Virus record (IMG/VR): IMGVR_UViG_3300042519_001095
Coordinates: 1-25,181 of that record
Length of the DNA: 25,181 nucleotides
Origin: a virus
Strand: one strand, 5' to 3'
Below the pieces are notes generated by a model. It was not told the origin of the DNA and did not search any database. It saw nothing but the letters and a program-made list of their open reading frames with translations. Of this stretch, positions 3,088 to 15,805 are shown piece by piece (positions within the stretch are counted from its first letter, which is position 1; the number at the start of each line of letters is the position of its first letter). Position numbers and translations under genes: made by a program.

Positions 3088-3372
3088 ATGAATTTTGATC
3101 CTTCTTCAGAAATAATTTCCAGCGAGAGTGACCACCTATTCCTTTGCTACTGTTCCTTCGTGAACCATCTCAAGGGTAAGAAATTGTCCATCCAGAACGT
3201 TTTCGTGACCACTCTCCAAGAGGAGAAGCTGAAAACGATCCTGAAAACGATATTGTCTCTTGACTCTGATCAGGAACTTGTTAAGGTTTTCCTAGAGCAA
3301 GACAACACGCTTTGTAAATCAAAATTTGTTACACGTTACGTGAGGGAAGAACAAAAAAAGAAAAAGAAGTGA
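3088..3372 (+). CDS. Hypothetical protein, 94 aa, lysine-tailed
   Basis: Not recognised. It starts at an ATG two bases after the previous stop, preceded by TTTAATT. The chain is mostly helical (LQEEKLKTILKTILSL) and ends in a run of lysines after a REEQ segment, which could bind nucleic acid electrostatically. The final codons overlap the GTG start of the next gene (GTGA), so translation is probably coupled. Confidence 0.72.
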   Translation: MNFDPSSEIISSESDHLFLCYCSFVNHLKGKKLSIQNVFVTTLQEEKLKTILKTILSLDSDQELVKVFLEQDNTLCKSKFVTRYVREEQKKKKK

Positions 3373-4808: not shown

Positions 4809-5720
4809 ATGAGTACAACAAAACAAAAAACAAAATTCGGAGCAGCTATGTTCGATTCGATCAAAGCGGCATTAAACAAGAGCAACGATTCATCGGGAGG
4901 TCAATTCTCCAATATCATGAGCTTTCCCGCAGGAAACACCTACACGCTTAGGTTGATCCCCAACGTGGAAGACCCTGAGAAGAGTCTGTTCCATCATTGG
5001 GTGCATGGATTCACCAGCAAGGCAAGCGGTAAATACATGAGCTTTCTTGGTCTTCAAACCATGGGAGATCGTGATCCGATTTCGGAGCTTCGGTGGAAGC
5101 TTTTCAAAAGCTGGAAGGAACAAAATCCCAAGGCTGAGAACAAGGACTATAGTGCGGAAATCTCCCAAAAGGAGCAATGGCTTGTGAATGTCTATGTGAT
5201 CAACGATCCTGCAAAGCCAGAGAACAACGGCACTGTGAAGATTCTTCGCATGGGGCCACAACTCAAGAAGATCATTGACGAAGCTACGGAAGGTAATCGT
5301 GCCGATGAACTTGGTTGGGACATCTTTGATCCTACCAAGGGACATGATTTCAAGATTGTGGCAGAGAAGAAGGGGGAATATACCACGTTTGAATCTTCGC
5401 TTATCACCACCAAGTCCAAGACTACTCTGGATGAAGAAGAGATCGAAAAGATTTGTTCGGAAATCCATGATCTGGAAGCGGTTTATTCCGTGAAGACTTA
5501 TGATGAGCTTCAGGACGTTCTCAATGAACACTTCTTTGTTGGGGAGGAAAAGGAAGAACGCAAGCCCCTTGCTAAAGCCAAGCAGGAAGCGGCTAAGGTT
5601 GAAGACGACGATGATGATATTCCGATGGTTCACGAAGAAAAGAAACCAGCGGCAAAATCCAAGAAAGTGGAAAAGCAGGACGACGACATTGACGAACTCC
5701 TTGCCGGACTTGATGATTAA
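4809..5720 (+). CDS. gp32-like single-stranded DNA binding protein
   Basis: The 303-aa product matches T4 gp32 in length and plan. Residues 1-20 form a basic N-terminal arm for cooperativity. An OB-fold core follows, with LVNVYVINDPAKPENNGTVK at 125-144, directly comparable to the T4 stretch with NDP-x-x-PENxGKVF. The C-terminal tail is acidic (DDDDD at 266-270) and ends DDIDELLAGLDD, like the T4 DLDDLLNDL end that recruits replication partners. It coats single-stranded DNA at forks and would contact the primase and helicase loader. Odd: the T4 zinc ligands are missing; the corresponding region (about 60-100) has no Cys, and the only Cys is at 216. The start is the ATG at 4809 with an A-rich leader and no Shine-Dalgarno. 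A strong terminator follows directly. Confidence 0.88.
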   Translation: MSTTKQKTKFGAAMFDSIKAALNKSNDSSGGQFSNIMSFPAGNTYTLRLIPNVEDPEKSLFHHWVHGFTSKASGKYMSFLGLQTMGDRDPISELRWKLFKSWKEQNPKAENKDYSAEISQKEQWLVNVYVINDPAKPENNGTVKILRMGPQLKKIIDEATEGNRADELGWDIFDPTKGHDFKIVAEKKGEYTTFESSLITTKSKTTLDEEEIEKICSEIHDLEAVYSVKTYDELQDVLNEHFFVGEEKEERKPLAKAKQEAAKVEDDDDDIPMVHEEKKPAAKSKKVEKQDDDIDELLAGLDD

Positions 5721-5770: not shown

Positions 5771-6238
5771 ATGAATCCAGAAATACCAGAAGAATTTTTA
5801 ACTATGGCTGCTCTGTTGGGGGAGAGTTCTAACATTGATTCATTAATGATTCAAAATCCCGGACAATTGGCTACTAACACCAACACACTCAAACGAGGTA
5901 TTGTGGAATACCAAGAGCAACAGAAGCGGGAACGTATTCAACCACAAGCACAACCAACCCATTATTATGGTGAAACGGGATCAACAGCGGTTCCCGTTTA
6001 TATCCCACCCCAACCACTTCCACAAGTTCCCCAATATGCTCCCATGCCCCAAAAAGTGGATGATGGGCAATTGGAATTGAATCTGGAACCATCCAAGGTG
6101 GATATCATCATCAATTTACTGAAAGAAATTTCTGTAAAGTTGACAAAACAGAATAGTATGTTAGAAAAGCAATATGCAGCTAAACCTGAAAAAGAAAGAG
6201 TTCCAGTTCTTACTCCAAAGCCTCGGTCAAATCCATGA
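5771..6238 (+). CDS. Hypothetical Pro/Gln-rich protein, 155 aa
   Basis: Not recognised. It starts at an ATG right after the terminator tail (TTTTTAAAAATATG). The N-terminal 25 residues are acidic and helical. A low-complexity Pro/Gln/Tyr section follows (RIQPQAQPTHYY, then PPQPLPQVPQYAPMPQ). Next comes a helix with heptad-like spacing (VDIIINLLKEISVKLTKQNSMLEKQ), likely coiled coil, and a basic Pro-rich end. The modular plan suggests a disordered linker joining two binding segments. Its last 65 bases overlap the clamp gene in another frame. Confidence 0.7.
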   Translation: MNPEIPEEFLTMAALLGESSNIDSLMIQNPGQLATNTNTLKRGIVEYQEQQKRERIQPQAQPTHYYGETGSTAVPVYIPPQPLPQVPQYAPMPQKVDDGQLELNLEPSKVDIIINLLKEISVKLTKQNSMLEKQYAAKPEKERVPVLTPKPRSNP

Positions 6239-6881
6239 CACTTGTGTTCTGGAACTGAGGGAAGATGGTATTCATGGGATTGCCTCCAGTGAGGACAATT
6301 CCATGTTTGCCCATGCTTACCTGTCAGGAGAGTATGAGGAGCAGAATCTCAATCTACCGTCTTTGAAGAAGCTTTGGAAAGCTTTGGATATGGTTTCCTC
6401 CGATGATATCAAGCTCAAGCTGAACAATAATCATCTGGAATATAAGGACAAGACCCTGAAGTTCAAATATCATCTCCATGAGGATGGGGTGATCACCAAA
6501 CCGAAGCTGTCTCTGGAAAAAATTCGTAATTTTGAATACAATCTCCAATTTGATCTGGATTTCGAGTTTCTTTCCAATGTTCTTCAGAAATCATCCATTA
6601 CAAACACCAACAAGCTCTATCTCTTCACGGAGAATGATTCTCTGGTGTGGAAGCTGGGGGATGAGACTGTTCCCAACAGTGATACTCTGAGCATCGTGGG
6701 AGATGAAGTGGATTTTGAATTGGAATCGTTCATTCTGAAGATCGACAATCTCAAGCTGTTGTCCAAGGTATCCAAGACCGGAAACATTTTCAAGATCAAT
6801 TCCAAGCTTGGAGTCGGCTGCATCATCACTAAAAGTGGGGATTTTGAGATGGAATACATCCTATCGAGTCTTAAAAACTAG
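6174..6881 (+). CDS. gp45-like sliding clamp
   Basis: The 235-aa product is close to T4 gp45 (228 aa), the trimeric DNA polymerase processivity clamp. Features seen: a short N-terminal helix (KKEFQFLLQSLGQI), then FTxxG-like strands GIHGIASSEDNSMFAHAYL comparable to the T4 start of domain 1, a central LKKLWKALDMV helix with SSDDIKLKLNNN strands, and a closing ITKSGDFEMEYILSSL strand typical of clamp domains. Overall identity to T4 is low, so the call rests on the two-domain beta pattern, size and replication context. The start at 6174 gives the expected clamp N-terminus but overlaps the preceding gene by 65 bases and has no clear Shine-Dalgarno. The TAG stop lies inside the CTAG of the following promoter-like element. 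Confidence 0.65.
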   Translation: MQLNLKKKEFQFLLQSLGQIHDTCVLELREDGIHGIASSEDNSMFAHAYLSGEYEEQNLNLPSLKKLWKALDMVSSDDIKLKLNNNHLEYKDKTLKFKYHLHEDGVITKPKLSLEKIRNFEYNLQFDLDFEFLSNVLQKSSITNTNKLYLFTENDSLVWKLGDETVPNSDTLSIVGDEVDFELESFILKIDNLKLLSKVSKTGNIFKINSKLGVGCIITKSGDFEMEYILSSLKN

Positions 6882-6889
6882 AATATAAT
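6871..6889 (+). promoter_or_regulatory. TTAAAAACTAG-TATAAT element, copy 1
   Basis: The sequence is TTAAAAACTAGAATATAAT. A perfect TATAAT (6884-6889) directly follows the TTAAAAACTAGAA block, and no -35-like hexamer is seen 17 bases upstream. With a usual seven-base gap from the last T, transcription would begin at 6896, which is the ATG of the next gene. The upstream clamp gene stops on the TAG inside this element. Confidence 0.62.
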
Positions 6890-8531: not shown

Positions 8532-8826
8532 AGAACCGGAGGAAATCTTCGTGGATGATCAGGTTTTGGAAATTCTTCGGGATTCTCTGAAACAAAAGAT
8601 TAAAAAAGATCGTAAGGGGGGTAAGAATCAATCCAACGCTGCCCTGAAAGCCACTTTACAGGAATTTATGACTTGTGGTAAACTTTTCGGATACGATCTG
8701 GATGGAAATGTTGTGGAAATCGCATTTCACGCCAATAAGATGGAGGATAATGCCATGCAGAACCTATTCATTCAGAAATTTGGGGAATTCATGGCTGGTA
8801 GGATGAATATTGCCGACGATTTTTAA
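8518..8826 (+). CDS. Hypothetical protein, 102 aa
   Basis: Not recognised. The ATG at 8518 (MKKDEEPEEIF) is preferred over the in-frame ATG at 8464, which would sit deep inside the upstream gene. The N-terminus is acidic, followed by a basic helical stretch (LKQKIKKDRKGGKNQSNAALKATLQEF) that could bind nucleic acid, then a short beta segment and a final helix ending in NIADDF. The TAA stop falls inside the TTTTAAAAAC of copy 2 of the promoter-like element. Confidence 0.73.
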   Translation: MKKDEEPEEIFVDDQVLEILRDSLKQKIKKDRKGGKNQSNAALKATLQEFMTCGKLFGYDLDGNVVEIAFHANKMEDNAMQNLFIQKFGEFMAGRMNIADDF

Positions 8827-8841
8827 AAACTAGATTACAAT
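8823..8841 (+). promoter_or_regulatory. TTAAAAACTAG-TACAAT element, copy 2
   Basis: The sequence is TTAAAAACTAGATTACAAT with core TACAAT (8836-8841). The next ATG is at 8848, seven bases after the last T, exactly as in copy 1. No -35-like hexamer is seen. The preceding gene stops on the TAA at 8824-8826, inside the element. Confidence 0.6.
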
Positions 8842-9006: not shown

Positions 9007-9265
9007 AAAACCAAAAATCGAAAAAGGCGATGTTTATGCAGTCCAAACAGGAGATTTTGTCGGGCAATTATTCAATTTCATTAAAAAAGATGGGGATGAT
9101 TACGTGTTTCTCTCCGTTCCAGATATAAAAATCCAAAGAGTTCCGATGGAAAAATTTGACTTTGCCAAAGAACATGAGATTATCGAATTCGTTGAACATC
9201 TCCCAAAAAATATCCGCCGCGTTATCGAAGCCCAATACGAAGTCCTTGCAAAAGAGGATGGTTGA
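8990..9265 (+). CDS. Hypothetical protein, 91 aa
   Basis: Not recognised. The ATG at 8990 is chosen; TTG at 8981 is in frame but weaker. A small beta-rich N-terminal domain is likely (KGDVYAVQTGDFVGQLFNFIKKDGDDYVFLSVPD), reading like an SH3/KOW-type barrel: a GDVY start, then strands separated by turns. The C-terminus is a helix (EFVEHLPKNIRRVIEAQYEVLAKE). Its last eight bases overlap the primase start. Confidence 0.72.
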   Translation: MINIFKKPKIEKGDVYAVQTGDFVGQLFNFIKKDGDDYVFLSVPDIKIQRVPMEKFDFAKEHEIIEFVEHLPKNIRRVIEAQYEVLAKEDG

Positions 9266-10283
9266 GATTCCGTCTGACTATGTGGTGTCCAAATTCTACG
9301 AGTTTGGGTATCGTCCCCAACATAACACCGGACAAAACACGTATCAATGTTGCTGTCCCATATGCCGCGAGGGAAAAAGCTGGGGGAGAAAGAAAAGATG
9401 CTTCTACATTCCCGAAAACGACAATATTTTCTGCCATAATTGCGGATGGTCATCCAAACCTTATAAGTGGATCAAGGAAGTGTCGGGATTATCATTCAAT
9501 CAGATGGTGGATGAGATTGAGAAGGGTAATTATGGGATGATCAATGTCATGGACATGGAAGATAAGCCCGACAAACCCAAATCATCATCCCTGCCGATAG
9601 ATAGCATCAATTTATCTGATAAAAATCAGACGGATTACTACAAGACCAACAAGATCGTCCAAAAAGCTCTGGCTTACATCAAGGAAAGGCGACTGGATAC
9701 CGCTGTAAATCGTCCAGATGCCTTTTATATCTCTTTGAAGGATGAAAAGCATGATAAGCGTCTGGTGATCCCATTCAAGGACGAGACGGGTAAGATTGTT
9801 TATTACCAAAGCAGACGATTGATGGATGATGAGTCTCCATCATATCTGTCAAAAGATGGGGGAGATAAGAGTATCTTTGGTATTGAGCGCATTTCATCCG
9901 ATCTGGATAAGGTTTTCATTATCGAAGGTCCATTGGATGCCTGTTTCGTGAGAAATGGGCTTGGTCTGGGGGGTATTACCAAGGGAGATCAGCTTTTCAC
10001 CGCATACCAACAGGAACAGATGGATGGTCTGAAGTTCTTTGAGAGGATTTGGGTGTTGGATAGCCAATGGATCGATAAAACAGCGAGGGAAAAGACCCTA
10101 AAGCTCATAGAAATGGGGGAAAAGGTGTTTATTTGGCCAGAATACGATGGAAAGAGGTTTAAAGACTTGAATGCTCTATGTATGGCTTACGAACACGATG
10201 AATATCCAGTTGATTTGATTGTAAAGAATAGTTGCAAAGGTTTGGCGGCAACGGTAAAAATGAAATTGATCGTTAAAAACTAG
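9258..10283 (+). CDS. gp61-like DNA primase (zinc finger plus TOPRIM)
   Basis: The product synthesises RNA primers for lagging-strand replication together with the replicative helicase. Starting at the ATG at 9258 gives 341 aa, nearly the length of T4 gp61, and puts the zinc finger at the expected place; the frame is open upstream to 9156 inside the previous gene. Seen: a zinc-binding pattern C33-PI-C36 and C59-HN-C62; a conserved KRLVIPF segment near 168-173; the TOPRIM Glu in the motif FIIEGPLDA (E223); the TOPRIM Asp in WVLDSQ (D268); and a KDLNAL segment at 302-307. The usual second Asp of the DxD appears as Q270, as divergence around this motif is common in T4-type primases. AAGAGG abuts the ATG, which is tight for a Shine-Dalgarno. 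The TAG stop lies inside copy 3 of the promoter-like element. Confidence 0.9.
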   Translation: MVEIPSDYVVSKFYEFGYRPQHNTGQNTYQCCCPICREGKSWGRKKRCFYIPENDNIFCHNCGWSSKPYKWIKEVSGLSFNQMVDEIEKGNYGMINVMDMEDKPDKPKSSSLPIDSINLSDKNQTDYYKTNKIVQKALAYIKERRLDTAVNRPDAFYISLKDEKHDKRLVIPFKDETGKIVYYQSRRLMDDESPSYLSKDGGDKSIFGIERISSDLDKVFIIEGPLDACFVRNGLGLGGITKGDQLFTAYQQEQMDGLKFFERIWVLDSQWIDKTAREKTLKLIEMGEKVFIWPEYDGKRFKDLNALCMAYEHDEYPVDLIVKNSCKGLAATVKMKLIVKN

Positions 10284-10291
10284 AATATAAT
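10273..10291 (+). promoter_or_regulatory. TTAAAAACTAG-TATAAT element, copy 3
   Basis: The sequence is TTAAAAACTAGAATATAAT, identical over 19 bases to copy 1. The ATG of the next gene is at 10299, eight bases after the last T of TATAAT. The primase stop codon is the TAG within the element. Confidence 0.62.
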
Positions 10292-11150: not shown

Positions 11151-11501
11151 ATGTCTGCTTCAAATTCTCCTTATTCCACAGCAATCGCCTCTGGAGCCAT
11201 CGATTTCGACTTTGAAAGTTCGTTAAATCCTTCGGAACAGATGCGAAAATACAAGACGGATGAGAAAGAAGCCAAGGCTCCCCATACTTTACCGTTTGAA
11301 TTTGGGGAATTACCCCAACAAATGGCAAATATTGTGGATAATGCGTTTGCCGCATCTAAAAATCTGGAAAATCTCCTGAAAATGGAGGAATTCCAGAAAA
11401 ACGGGGAACTTATCAAGCTCAAGGGTAATCTGGAGAAAATGATTATGTATTTGATGCAAAATGGGGATAAGACGCTTGAGAAATTCACCATCGGGTTTTA
11501 A
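11151..11501 (+). CDS. Hypothetical protein, 116 aa
   Basis: Not recognised. The ATG at 11151 is chosen over an in-frame GTG at 11136. It is divergent from the 138-aa gene with a 33-base gap. The N-terminus is Ser/Ala-rich; residues from about 65 on are helical (DNAFAASKNLENLLKMEEFQKNGELIKLKGNLEKMIMYL), probably coiled coil. The TAA stop lies within copy 4 of the promoter-like element. Confidence 0.72.
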   Translation: MSASNSPYSTAIASGAIDFDFESSLNPSEQMRKYKTDEKEAKAPHTLPFEFGELPQQMANIVDNAFAASKNLENLLKMEEFQKNGELIKLKGNLEKMIMYLMQNGDKTLEKFTIGF

Positions 11502-11516
11502 AAACTAGACTACAAT
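11498..11516 (+). promoter_or_regulatory. TTAAAAACTAG-TACAAT element, copy 4
   Basis: The sequence is TTAAAAACTAGACTACAAT, core TACAAT at 11511-11516. The next ATG is at 11524, eight bases after the last T. The upstream stop codon TAA (11499-11501) is part of the element, as in copy 2. Confidence 0.6.
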
Positions 11517-11523
11517 CCTAAAC

Positions 11524-11706
11524 ATGGAAGACGACAATACACTTGAATTGGAAATGGTGATGGATTTTATCGATCAAGCTGGGGAATTGCAGGATATCTG
11601 CAATAGACTCTATATTGCTCGAAATATCGCATTATCTAGTGAAGGGGTTGAAAAGTGTTTGAAGGAAATTGACAATATTTTCAGAGATAAAGATAATTTT
11701 AACTGA
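11524..11706 (+). CDS. Small acidic helical protein, 60 aa
   Basis: Not recognised. First gene after copy 4 of the promoter-like element. Entirely helical and acidic (LELEMVMDFIDQAGELQDICNRL and KCLKEIDNIFRDKDNF). The tnpB element begins right after its stop (TGA at 11704-11706), so the gene may keep its full length by chance or its original end may have been altered by the insertion. Confidence 0.65.
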   Translation: MEDDNTLELEMVMDFIDQAGELQDICNRLYIARNIALSSEGVEKCLKEIDNIFRDKDNFN

Positions 11707-11707
11707 T

Positions 11708-11850
11708 GTGAAATAGTTCCGTTATCTTATGAAAAGTCATGAAATAACATTTTGTTCTTCATTCAACGACCCGTCTATTGACAAATCTCCTGAAGCGTAA
11801 ATTCGGGCGAACTCAGCCCTATATTTGAAATTCTTAATCCTTCCTTGAGG
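11708..11850 (-). ncRNA. Probable omega RNA region of tnpB
   Basis: In TnpB systems the guide RNA scaffold comes from the tnpB 3' end plus the downstream element end, with the guide read from the flanking DNA. On the minus strand, the bases after the tnpB stop read GTTGAATGAAGAAC, then the hairpin at 11748-11721, then GGAACTATTTCAC, an arrangement like known IS605 right ends (established knowledge, from memory). The guide would then be the bases just beyond about 11708, the 3' end of the small gene at 11524-11706. Exact limits cannot be read from sequence alone. Confidence 0.35.
11721..11748. repeat. Imperfect hairpin at the downstream end of the tnpB element
   Basis: GTTATCTTATGA (11721-11732) and TCATGAAATAAC (11737-11748) are 12-base arms around an AAAG loop, with ten Watson-Crick pairs and two non-canonical positions. 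It lies between the convergent ends of the 60-aa gene and tnpB. It could be the TnpA-recognised right-end hairpin, part of the omega RNA, and a bidirectional terminator at once. The arm 11725-11738 recurs inverted at 13028-13041. Confidence 0.6.
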
Positions 11851-12938
11851 ATGTTTTTAGCGGCATTTAAATCCCTTGAGTGGATCGTATTACACTCCCC
11901 ACATTTCCAAGTTCTATCTTTTAAGGTTAAGTTGTCATTTTTATAACCACAATTCCCACATAATTTAGAACTTGGAAAGAATCTATCTATCTGTATCAAA
12001 TCCCTTCCATACCAATTACATTTGTAAGTAAGGATTTCTTTGAATCTGAAAATAGATAATTCTTGGATCGACTTTGCCAATTTATGGTTCTTCATCATTC
12101 CTGAAACGTTCAAGTCTTCAATGATTATGAGTTGGTTTTCCTCTATAATCTTATTGGACACCTGATGAAGATAATGGTTTTTTATGTTTGATAATTTATC
12201 ATGGTATTTTGCTAATTTGATTCTTGATTTCTCTTTGTTCTTAGACCCTTTTAATTTTTTAGAATGCCGTCTGTGGAGTCTGGCAAGTTTCTTTTGATTG
12301 TTTCTTTTTATCTTGATATTTTCCCACTCATGTCCATTGGAATCAACGATAAAAGTCTTGATACCAACATCCAAGCCAATCGATTTATTAGACAATGGTA
12401 ATTCCTTTTGAATTGGTATCTCAACCAGAACACTGAAATAATATTGACCATACCCATTTTTGGATAATGTTGCTGATTTTATATCATCTTGAAAATTATT
12501 AAGATGTGTTTCGTCTCGTTTGGAGCATTTGAAATGAATATTTCTTAGAGGTTTTATAATGTTGATTCTATTACCATTTATTTTTCCAATTGCGTCCACT
12601 GGAAACCTACAAGATTGTTTATTTCTCTTGGATTTAAATTTTGGAAATCCTGCGCCATTTTTGAAAAATGATTTATATGCAGCTTCCAGATTGATAAGAG
12701 ACTGTTGTAGAACTTTGGAATGAACATCCTTTAACCATATTGTTTCCTCTTGGCTTTTCAAGCCCGTAAGATGCTTACCAAGCTCTTTAAAAGATGTTGA
12801 TTTCTTATCGTCGTTATAATTTTTAATTTTCAATGCCAAACAATTATTATATACAAACCTACAGGAACCCAAAAATTGGGAGATGTAATTCTCCTGTTCT
12901 TGAGTTGGATAGAGTCTGATTTTAATTGCCTTCAACAT
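11775..12938 (-). CDS. tnpB: TnpB RNA-guided nuclease (IS605 OrfB family)
   Basis: The 387-aa protein is a full-length TnpB, ancestor-type of Cas12, which uses an element-derived guide RNA to cut DNA and so retain the element. Seen: N-terminal MLKAIKIRLYPTQEQ, the standard family opening; RuvC-I Asp in GLDVGIKTF (D190); RuvC-II Glu in IIIEDLNVSGMM (E274); a zinc finger CGNC (327-330) with CGEC (346-349); and RuvC-III Asp in HSRDLNAAKNI (D356). All three catalytic acids are present, so it should be active, unlike the nuclease-dead TnpB-derived repressors. The upstream region carries GACTAAATAA and TATACT on the minus strand. It stands in the opposite direction to the replication genes and just behind one of them. 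Confidence 0.93.
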   Translation of the reverse strand: MLKAIKIRLYPTQEQENYISQFLGSCRFVYNNCLALKIKNYNDDKKSTSFKELGKHLTGLKSQEETIWLKDVHSKVLQQSLINLEAAYKSFFKNGAGFPKFKSKRNKQSCRFPVDAIGKINGNRINIIKPLRNIHFKCSKRDETHLNNFQDDIKSATLSKNGYGQYYFSVLVEIPIQKELPLSNKSIGLDVGIKTFIVDSNGHEWENIKIKRNNQKKLARLHRRHSKKLKGSKNKEKSRIKLAKYHDKLSNIKNHYLHQVSNKIIEENQLIIIEDLNVSGMMKNHKLAKSIQELSIFRFKEILTYKCNWYGRDLIQIDRFFPSSKLCGNCGYKNDNLTLKDRTWKCGECNTIHSRDLNAAKNILKEGLRISNIGLSSPEFTLQEICQ

Positions 12939-12958
12939 TTAGTATAGTGTGTATATAC

Positions 12959-12968
12959 TTATTTAGTC
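12959..12968 (-). promoter_or_regulatory. GACTAAATAA box upstream of tnpB
   Basis: On the minus strand GACTAAATAA ends 20 bases before the tnpB ATG. The same ten bases precede the 138-aa minus-strand gene at 11122-11131. The spacing here fits a -10 type late box with a short leader. Two copies are too few to establish it. Confidence 0.3.
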
Positions 12969-13027
12969 TTTCGGTGAAACTTTTTTTAAAGATGTTTATA
13001 TCAGGCAATCAATTCACAATTTTTATA

Positions 13028-13041
13028 GACTTTTCACAAGA
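13028..13041. repeat. Inverted copy of the downstream-end arm, upstream side of tnpB element
   Basis: GACTTTTCACAAGA is the reverse complement of TCTTATGAAAAGTC (11725-11738) apart from one base. Neighbouring bases 13023-13039 can fold into a six-pair hairpin with one bulged base. The stretch 12969-13101 otherwise holds no gene I can support. Confidence 0.55.
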
Positions 13042-13101
13042 ATTTGTTAAGTTGAATAATACTCTGTGGTATTGGATAAGTAGAATGTAGTGAGTAATCG
13101 G

Positions 13102-13120
13102 TTAAAAACTAGAATACAAT
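13102..13120 (+). promoter_or_regulatory. TTAAAAACTAG-TACAAT element, copy 5
   Basis: The sequence is TTAAAAACTAGAATACAAT, core TACAAT at 13115-13120. It stands in a non-coding stretch, unlike the other four copies, which overlap the upstream stop codon. A start seven bases after the core would be 13127, just before the GTG at 13131. Confidence 0.6.
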
Positions 13121-13130
13121 AGTGAGCGAT

Positions 13131-13280
13131 GTGAAATACGAAATCCAGCATAAAAAGACAAAGCAACGCCTTCAATCCACAAAATCTTACCCATTTCGGT
13201 TTATTGCTAAATTGGTTCTTGAATTTGCAAAAATTTGTGGTATTGATGGTGATAAGTGGCACGTAGTAAAGGTGAAGTAA
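13131..13280 (+). CDS. Small basic protein, 49 aa, GTG start
   Basis: Not recognised. The GTG at 13131 is preferred because a transcript from the TACAAT element would begin near 13127; GTG at 13122 is in frame and would add three residues. The product is basic (YEIQHKKTKQRLQSTK) and then hydrophobic/aromatic (FRFIAKLVLEFAKICG). It might be a small nucleic-acid-binding or inhibitor protein. The TAA overlaps the next ATG (TAATG). Confidence 0.55.
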   Translation: MKYEIQHKKTKQRLQSTKSYPFRFIAKLVLEFAKICGIDGDKWHVVKVK

Positions 13281-13660
13281 TGAAAAATCAACAAAAATGG
13301 CTTACAGACAAGCTCAAAGGAACTTGGATGGACAAAGACGCACTGCTGGAAATCTGTTTATTTGAATCTCTGGTTCATTATGTGGAGAAAGAGAAAGGGT
13401 TGGACCATTGGGGTGCGAATTGGGATAAAGAAATCGCGGATGGTCATGTTGATCAGATATACGTGGATGAAATCAAAGCTAGGGACGCTTTGATCAAACA
13501 TTGTTATGACTGGATCAAAGTGGGAAGGGTTGAAATCCAAAAATTGCTTGACTCCATTGAGGATTGGAAAGAATATACGCGGATTGAGAATGAACTTTAT
13601 GGCGAGGATTCAGAAGTGATGCGAATCATCATCGAACAGCGCGGTTACATGTGGACATGA
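13280..13660 (+). CDS. Conserved hypothetical phage protein, 126 aa
   Basis: The ATG at 13280 overlaps the preceding stop and follows AGGTGAA; an in-frame GTG at 13256 is less likely. The product is acidic, helical and Trp-rich and ends in IIIEQRGYMWT. A Gly-Tyr-(Leu/Met)-Trp-Thr ending is familiar from uncharacterised phage and prophage proteins of this size (recollection). No catalytic residues are evident. The stop overlaps the next ATG by ATGA. Confidence 0.76.
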   Translation: MKNQQKWLTDKLKGTWMDKDALLEICLFESLVHYVEKEKGLDHWGANWDKEIADGHVDQIYVDEIKARDALIKHCYDWIKVGRVEIQKLLDSIEDWKEYTRIENELYGEDSEVMRIIIEQRGYMWT

Positions 13661-15463: not shown

Positions 15464-15805
15464 TCAGAACCCAAGCTTTTTACAATAACTTTCACATTCA
15501 ATAGGCACAACTGTTCCAGTTCTTGGAACAGTTGTTGTGGTCGTTGTGGTCGTAGTCGTTGTTGTGGTGGTCGTAGTTATTTGAATGGTAAATGGATTGA
15601 GAGATGTCGGGGGTGTTATATCAATCACTAACGGGGGAATGGTTCGTGTTGTAAAGTTCAGAATGATGGGGGGATTGATTACTGGTGGGTTTGGAGCAGT
15701 CGTGGTGCTTGTAGTAGTCGTGGTGTCTGATGGAGCAGTCGTGGTGCTTGTAGTAGGCGTTGGAGTGGTGGTGCCTGAGAGAGTAGTGGTGGTGCTTGTA
15801 GGCAT
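15464..15805 (-). CDS. Thr-rich mucin-like structural protein, 113 aa
   Basis: Composition is the evidence: about half of the residues are Thr, with many Pro and Ser. Residues 1-38 contain repeated TTTTSTTTAP-like units, a 40-residue hydrophobic/Pro section follows (PPVINPPIILNF and on), then 16 consecutive Thr, and a short end VPRTGTVVPIECESYCKKLGF with two Cys. The 26-base DNA repeat at 15692 and 15731 encodes two copies of the unit. It belongs to the fibre operon. It might be a flexible virion stalk or decoration, with the Thr as glycosylation sites for the adjacent enzyme. The start ATG is preceded by CTGTA and lacks a Shine-Dalgarno. Confidence 0.68.
   Translation of the reverse strand: MPTSTTTTLSGTTTPTPTTSTTTAPSDTTTTTSTTTAPNPPVINPPIILNFTTRTIPPLVIDITPPTSLNPFTIQITTTTTTTTTTTTTTTTVPRTGTVVPIECESYCKKLGF
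15530..15577 (-). repeat. Run of 16 Thr codons
   Basis: Sixteen successive Thr codons on the minus strand use all four ACN codons (mainly ACA and ACC, also ACG and ACT). The mixture shows protein-level selection or old expansion, not recent pure slippage of a single triplet. Confidence 0.85.
15692..15756. repeat. 26-bp perfect direct repeat, 39-base period
   Basis: The 26 bases at 15692-15717 recur at 15731-15756, starting TGGAGCAGTCGTGG. The period of 39 bases keeps the reading frame (13 codons), so copy-number changes would lengthen or shorten the Thr-rich protein without a frameshift. Confidence 0.85.

Follow-up and report, generated by a model that had tools for sequence, protein, structure and literature searches.

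The window (the whole stretch of DNA that was analysed, 25,181 bp) is the record of a virus with a T4-like replication region, as judged from its gene content. A tnpB gene is located on the minus strand, opposing the operon. The relevant features are the following, in window coordinates:

4809-5720, gp32-like SSB gene of the T4-like replication region
6174-6881, clamp gene of the same region
9156-10283, primase gene of the same region
6871-6889, 8823-8841, 10273-10291, 11498-11516 and 13102-13120, plus strand only, copies of the promoter-type motif TTAAAAACTAGANTAYAAT
11498-11516, plus strand, promoter-type motif of the upstream neighbour gene, kept in the empty alleles
11524-11706, plus strand, upstream neighbour gene, its last codons lying within the predicted target
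11693-11712, minus strand, predicted guide TTCACATCAGTTAAAATTAT, placed by its position after the right end and by analogy with ISDra2 TnpB
11705-11715, left copy of the 11-base direct repeat GATGTGAAATA
11713-11825, minus strand, conserved 3' scaffold of the predicted guide RNA, defined by a block in relatives and ending in GGAACTAT (11713-11720)
11716-13138 (equally 11705-13127), insert of 1423 nt with respect to two empty alleles
11721-11748, minus strand, last hairpin before the right end
11775-12938, minus strand, tnpB, coding for 387 aa with the RuvC residues D190, E274 and D356 and two CxxC pairs
13102-13120, plus strand, phage promoter-type motif TTAAAAACTAGAATACAAT within the insert, before the gene at 13131
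13128-13138, right copy of the 11-base direct repeat GATGTGAAATA
13131-13280, plus strand, downstream gene, parted by the insert from the upstream promoter (listed from the GTG at 13122)

Three Pfam domains (OrfB_IS605, Cas12f1-like TNB and HTH_OrfB) were detected above their cut-offs in the product of tnpB. Residues D190, E274, D356, C327, C330, C346 and C349 are invariant in an alignment of 12 TnpB sequences, that of the window included. The ISDra2-type TnpB entries 8bf8, 8ex9 and 8exa matched the protein with an E-value of 2e-63, and the triad aligned with residues 191, 278 and 361 of the best solved-structure match. The domains, the alignment and the structure match all confirmed what an earlier sequence-only reading had stated, namely that tnpB is intact and retains both the triad and the CxxC pairs. 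TldR proteins are nuclease-dead TnpB repressors which have lost the RuvC triad; the intact triad ruled out this identity for the window protein. Its closest relatives are viral, with 68% identity for the best non-identical viral hit. Among the cellular matches (80 loci), the best one was a single 50% hit in a Bacteroidetes MAG contig, the others reaching at most 45%. An imperfect palindrome (12941-12959, e.g. GTATATACACACTATAC) directly precedes the start of tnpB and is also present, with differing bases, in several relatives. It could represent either an operator or a left-end hairpin.

The element-free joint was found in five contigs of close relatives (L035, L036, L037, L038 and L055). The hits in the last four are identical, giving two distinct empty alleles. 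In both, the next gene starts directly after ORF 11524; in the L036-type allele this gene is internally shortened. The GTG at position 13131 matches the gene start in the empty allele and is plausibly the start of the downstream gene. When the junction stretches were shuffled 5000 times, a repeat as long as the 11 bases at the joints was reached 5 times. The existence in relatives of element-free alleles with both flanks is a trait of free-standing homing endonucleases. It is unlikely that the arrangement is an assembly artefact, since a second contig (3300042392) shows 99.96% identity across a comparison of 4700 bases, and two contigs from a third sample (3300042339), which meet inside tnpB, have the same arrangement. 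The latter contigs (L033 and L057) end within the gene with an overlap of 7 bases at window positions 12318-12324; perhaps the assembler met another copy of tnpB.

Comparison with relatives fixed the right end of the element at about position 11713 (..GGAACTAT|). Loci L113 and L144 are identical up to ..ACAGAACTAT and diverge beyond. The right-end motif GAACTAT was also identified in L112, L117, L118, L123, L155 and L007; it is replaced by GGAATCAT in L009 and L115, and by GGAATTAT in L122. In L123 (3085-3125), GAACTAT runs into GG and its final AT supplies the ATG of the downstream frame. In five loci (L139, L141, L146, L147 and L152), the tnpB start lies at most 8 bases away from the upstream stop codon, so that a left end seems to be absent there.

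The sequence-only reading had bounded the element by a 14-base inverted repeat and had noted an imperfect hairpin at the downstream end. The hairpin was recovered at 11721-11748. The inverted repeat exists as well: 13 of its 14 bases pair, shuffling of the two intergenic regions equalled it in 4 of 500 trials, and L123 displays an inverted match of its own (14/14 bases). As the ends of a transposon, however, the repeat was rejected, because the empty alleles set the joints elsewhere, at 11705-11715 and 13128-13138, and the other copies are nearly all devoid of it. It is one of 61 inverted pairs within 2.1 kb; its left arm sits in the hairpin and its right arm stops 87 bases inside the real joint. 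The best inverted match was equalled by 4 to 60 of 60 shuffles in 12 of the 14 loci compared (window included), leaving the window and L123 as the only loci with a notable one. A 19-base direct repeat around tnpB (11498-11516 and 13102-13120) was rejected as well, as it is the promoter-type motif present in five copies.

This motif (TTAAAAACTAGANTAYAAT) would be expected 0.02 times in the window; it is also present in related phages. Four of the five copies end 6-7 bases upstream of a start codon, from which it follows that the mRNAs may be leaderless. The fifth, at 13102-13120, lies 10 bases from the GTG at 13131 and is missing from the empty joint. As the insert separates the downstream gene from the promoter at 11498, this motif and the accompanying start region suggest that the inserted DNA restores both promoter and start of the severed gene.

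The Y1 transposase TnpA of IS200/IS605 transposons (PF01797) gave no match in the 25,181-bp record, itself a fragment, and matched in only one of 32 TnpB-bearing virus records, in agreement with the earlier statement that tnpA is lacking. Insertion of the IS200/IS605 type is not known to make a target duplication, whereas 11 bases are repeated at the joints of the window element. A search of positions 11400-13400 against Rfam yielded nothing but one microRNA family below threshold, and hence no indication of an IStron or group I intron around tnpB, or of a known RNA family.

In relatives, the conserved 3' scaffold block overlaps the end of tnpB and stops at the short right-end motif. RNAalifold analysis of 14 sequences delivered 8 pairs, 5 of them with at least one change on both sides, and these paired changes support the presence of a structured RNA at the 3' end of tnpB. 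Folding of the predicted RNA as a single sequence was no better than that of shuffles (z -0.87). At the sequence level, the region from the tnpB 3' end up to the right end thus resembles the structured RNA of TnpB/OMEGA systems. The predicted 20-nt guide extends over the ORF 11524 stop codon and into the beginning of the gene that follows.

On the minus strand of the left flank, GTAT (13136-13139) is followed by the first 8 bases of the guide, after which the sequences diverge. Six of 20 positions (9, 10, 12, 14, 15 and 19) in this target copy are mismatched to the guide. The carrier's copy is altered as in free-standing homing endonucleases, which predicts resistance. Cutting by ISDra2 TnpB was reported to need a TAM and a target match, and to fall 15-21 bp from the TAM (PMC8612924). 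According to a statement cited in a preprint on Ymu1 TnpB (PMC12803034), targets with mismatches past about position 8 can be bound by Dra2 TnpB in a state that does not permit cleavage; by analogy, we infer that the left flank of the window would not be cut. In the empty alleles, L035 differs from the window guide at 3 of 20 positions, and L036 has an extra base and further changes, so that within the window's own family neither empty allele offers an exact target. The bases before the target copy are GTAT in the left flanks of the window and of L009, and GTAC in L115. Before the target in 45 empty alleles of the L009 gene, ATAT was found 23 times, GTAT and ATAC 8 times each, next to others.

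Other phage TnpBs have a comparable layout in which the duplicated gene ends are longer, three cases being well supported and one weak. In L008/L009, the gene preceding tnpB ends with ..ISEITNHKLLYGQ and a stop, and ITEVQNHKLLYGQ with its stop, the old end of the gene, directly follows the right end. This duplication, visible when all upstream frames are tested, has a score of 58 which was reached by none of 812 mismatched pairs. The L009 guide differs from the left copy at 9 of 20 positions. Sixty element-free homologs of the gene were fetched, 45 of which were distinct after duplicates had been dropped; the guide is off by 2-11 of 20 positions in these, and by at most 5 in 13 of the 45. These counts are anchored on the gene, as a whole-locus scan allows spurious matches. 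In L158, the duplication score is 67 against a null maximum of 51, and 4 of 20 guide positions are changed. The weak case, L005/L115 (LYNKIINEVW versus LYEDIINETW, 8 of 20 guide positions different), reaches p ~0.015, and no homologs of the L005 gene were found in phage records.

The third well-supported case is a distant tnpB (39% identical, hereafter tnpB2) in the L036-L038 and L055 records. It is inserted in the counterpart of window ORF 3088-3372 (compare L344, L345 and L346), a gene which has been entered by this unrelated tnpB in close relatives of the window phage. The left flank of tnpB2 holds a complete divergent gene start, and the right flank the predicted guide with roughly 30 initial codons of the old gene start (duplication score 116, null maximum 51). 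The right ends of tnpB2 and L158 were placed by eye. The tnpB2 guide is off by 1 of 25 positions in ORF 3088-3372 of the window phage and in L345, and by 8 of 25 in its own left copy. Locus L346 has no element at the tnpB2 site, yet it carries the left-copy version, from which the guide is also off by 8 of 25. A resistant-looking version thus exists without the element, possibly as its source or as an excision product.

The duplication test was run on 43 clade loci and 41 further virus loci, with one locus in both sets and some near-duplicates. Clear duplications were obtained for L147/L148, L009, tnpB2 and L158; the top null score of the clade (91) stems from L147 paired with its near-copy L148. 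None of 66 loci from cellular genomes exceeded the null maximum (best score 53 against 56), none of 15 TnpB loci in the phage record collection had an outstanding duplication, and neither had Lak phages and 13 other phage records. Gene-end duplication is seen in a minority of phage TnpBs, and most of the TnpB loci examined are without it. The window locus was not flagged by this test because its repeat is short (11 bases), and its case is built on the two empty alleles, the promoter motif and this repeat. Middling scores in L157 and L113 went with stop-bearing or low-complexity stretches and were not counted. In L147/L148, the last 22 codons of the gene before TnpB are repeated behind TnpB with a score of 91. 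This pair was not counted as a guide/gene match either, as the remnant seems to begin only about 36 bases past the putative right end and in-frame TAGs interrupt the TnpB match in the L148 record.

On balance, and with confidence slightly above even, we lean towards a TnpA-less TnpB which is used like a homing endonuclease and is accompanied by a guide-mismatched rescue of its target gene. The tnpB gene and its 3' scaffold would give an RNA whose 3' end, past GGAACTAT, would consist of the flanking DNA TTCACATCAGTTAAAATTAT. The complex of TnpB and this RNA would cut co-infecting phage genomes at the joint between ORF 11524 and the next gene, in the sequence following a TAM that probably ends in TAT. 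Repair from the TnpB-bearing genome would then copy the 1.4-kb insert, as in homing. The insertion would part the second gene from its promoter and start, and the inserted DNA would supply a new promoter and start region. Matching the guide over its first 8 bases only, the rescue copy should allow the carrier to escape cutting, and selection may keep it. At the other loci, it would be the gene end, in place of promoter and start, that is copied along to replace the severed part. As a guess, the first rescue could have originated from recombination with a divergent allele. Behaviour like that of a homing endonuclease had already been proposed from the sequence alone. The empty alleles, the lack of tnpA, the position of the guide on a gene joint and the mismatched left-flank copy fit this proposal; the argument drawn from the inverted repeat does not hold. 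Counting against the homing-and-rescue reading are the rarity of gene-end duplication, the lack of an exact empty target, the wider spacing between the rescue motif and its start (10 bases, compared with 6-7 for the other copies) and the unremarkable single-sequence fold.

The generalisation that a subset of phage TnpBs act as natural home-and-rescue drives, aiming at gene ends and travelling with a divergent, guide-mismatched replacement of the cut gene end, is put forward tentatively, with confidence short of even. If true, insertion would be harmless to the host gene and the carrier would be immune, the rescue being a new promoter and gene start in the window and about 12-30 codons elsewhere. 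TnpB is considered to be ancestral to Cas12. For solo TnpBs, which have to persist with no transposase, homing between phages with built-in target rescue would provide a life cycle, and it would parallel in nature what engineered gene drives do by design. It would also predict which phage cuts which, the tnpB2 guide with its single mismatch in 25 to ORF 3088-3372 being an example.

An ordinary TnpB-only insertion of the IS200/IS605 type, for which the host or another phage would supply TnpA in trans, would make the repeat and the promoter accidental and leave TnpB to guard against loss of the element. This explanation is rather unlikely but deserves consideration, as most TnpB loci examined lack gene-end duplication and the close empty alleles do not match the guide exactly. 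The 11 bases repeated at the joints are not expected from such an insertion, tnpA occurs in just one of the 32 records, and the gene end next to the element is restored, with an altered guide region, in independent phage TnpBs. On its side, solo TnpB elements in phages have already been published (PMC2853527). Exclusion of one phage by another without homing, in which TnpB is kept for destroying competing relatives and the insertion is fixed in the lineage, appears improbable. The difference between the carrier's own copy and the window phage or L345 in their match to the tnpB2 guide would suit it well. The empty alleles and the changing insertion sites among relatives rather point to mobility, and the promoter in the insert would be left unexplained.

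The reading of a homing-like TnpB with rescue can be set beside known systems. The window locus shares with ISDra2 TnpB/OMEGA the domains, the RuvC triad and the zinc ribbon, as well as the predicted derivation of the RNA scaffold from the gene 3' end and right end and of the guide from the flank (PMC8612924). It differs by the lack of tnpA, the repeat at the joints, another right-end motif, and an insert which supplies the neighbour gene with a phage-type promoter and a start. As with the free-standing homing endonucleases of T4-like phages (seg, mob), the gene is intergenic and the donor's target copy is altered. Displaced promoters at insertion sites have been discussed for the T4 enzymes, which are protein-guided and cut hundreds or thousands of bases from their own gene (PMC2988022), whereas the predicted target of the window TnpB lies at the insertion joint and would be read by RNA. 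Cutting of element-free copies, as predicted here, was described for a TnpB gene drive of IS200/IS605 in plasmids, where it favours carriers (PMC11870625). That drive concerns plasmids and IS elements with TnpA, and the available portion of that report (PMC11870625) does not speak of a rescued target gene. ISCaje1-3, TnpB-only IS elements of lytic Campylobacter phages, are likewise solo TnpBs (PMC2853527); the part of the text available makes no mention of gene-end duplication. A phage tnpB beside CRISPR-like repeats has also been published (PMC11437467). In titles and the beginnings of abstracts, few subscription papers being included, no phage TnpB with a rescued target gene was described.

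Two minor observations were made. The TnpB match contains 12 in-frame TAG codons in G027 and 12 TAG and one TAA in G028, the records of L147 and L148, which suggests that TAG is recoded in these records. On the minus strand of the window, a small ORF at 15464-15805 consists mostly of threonine-rich repeats.
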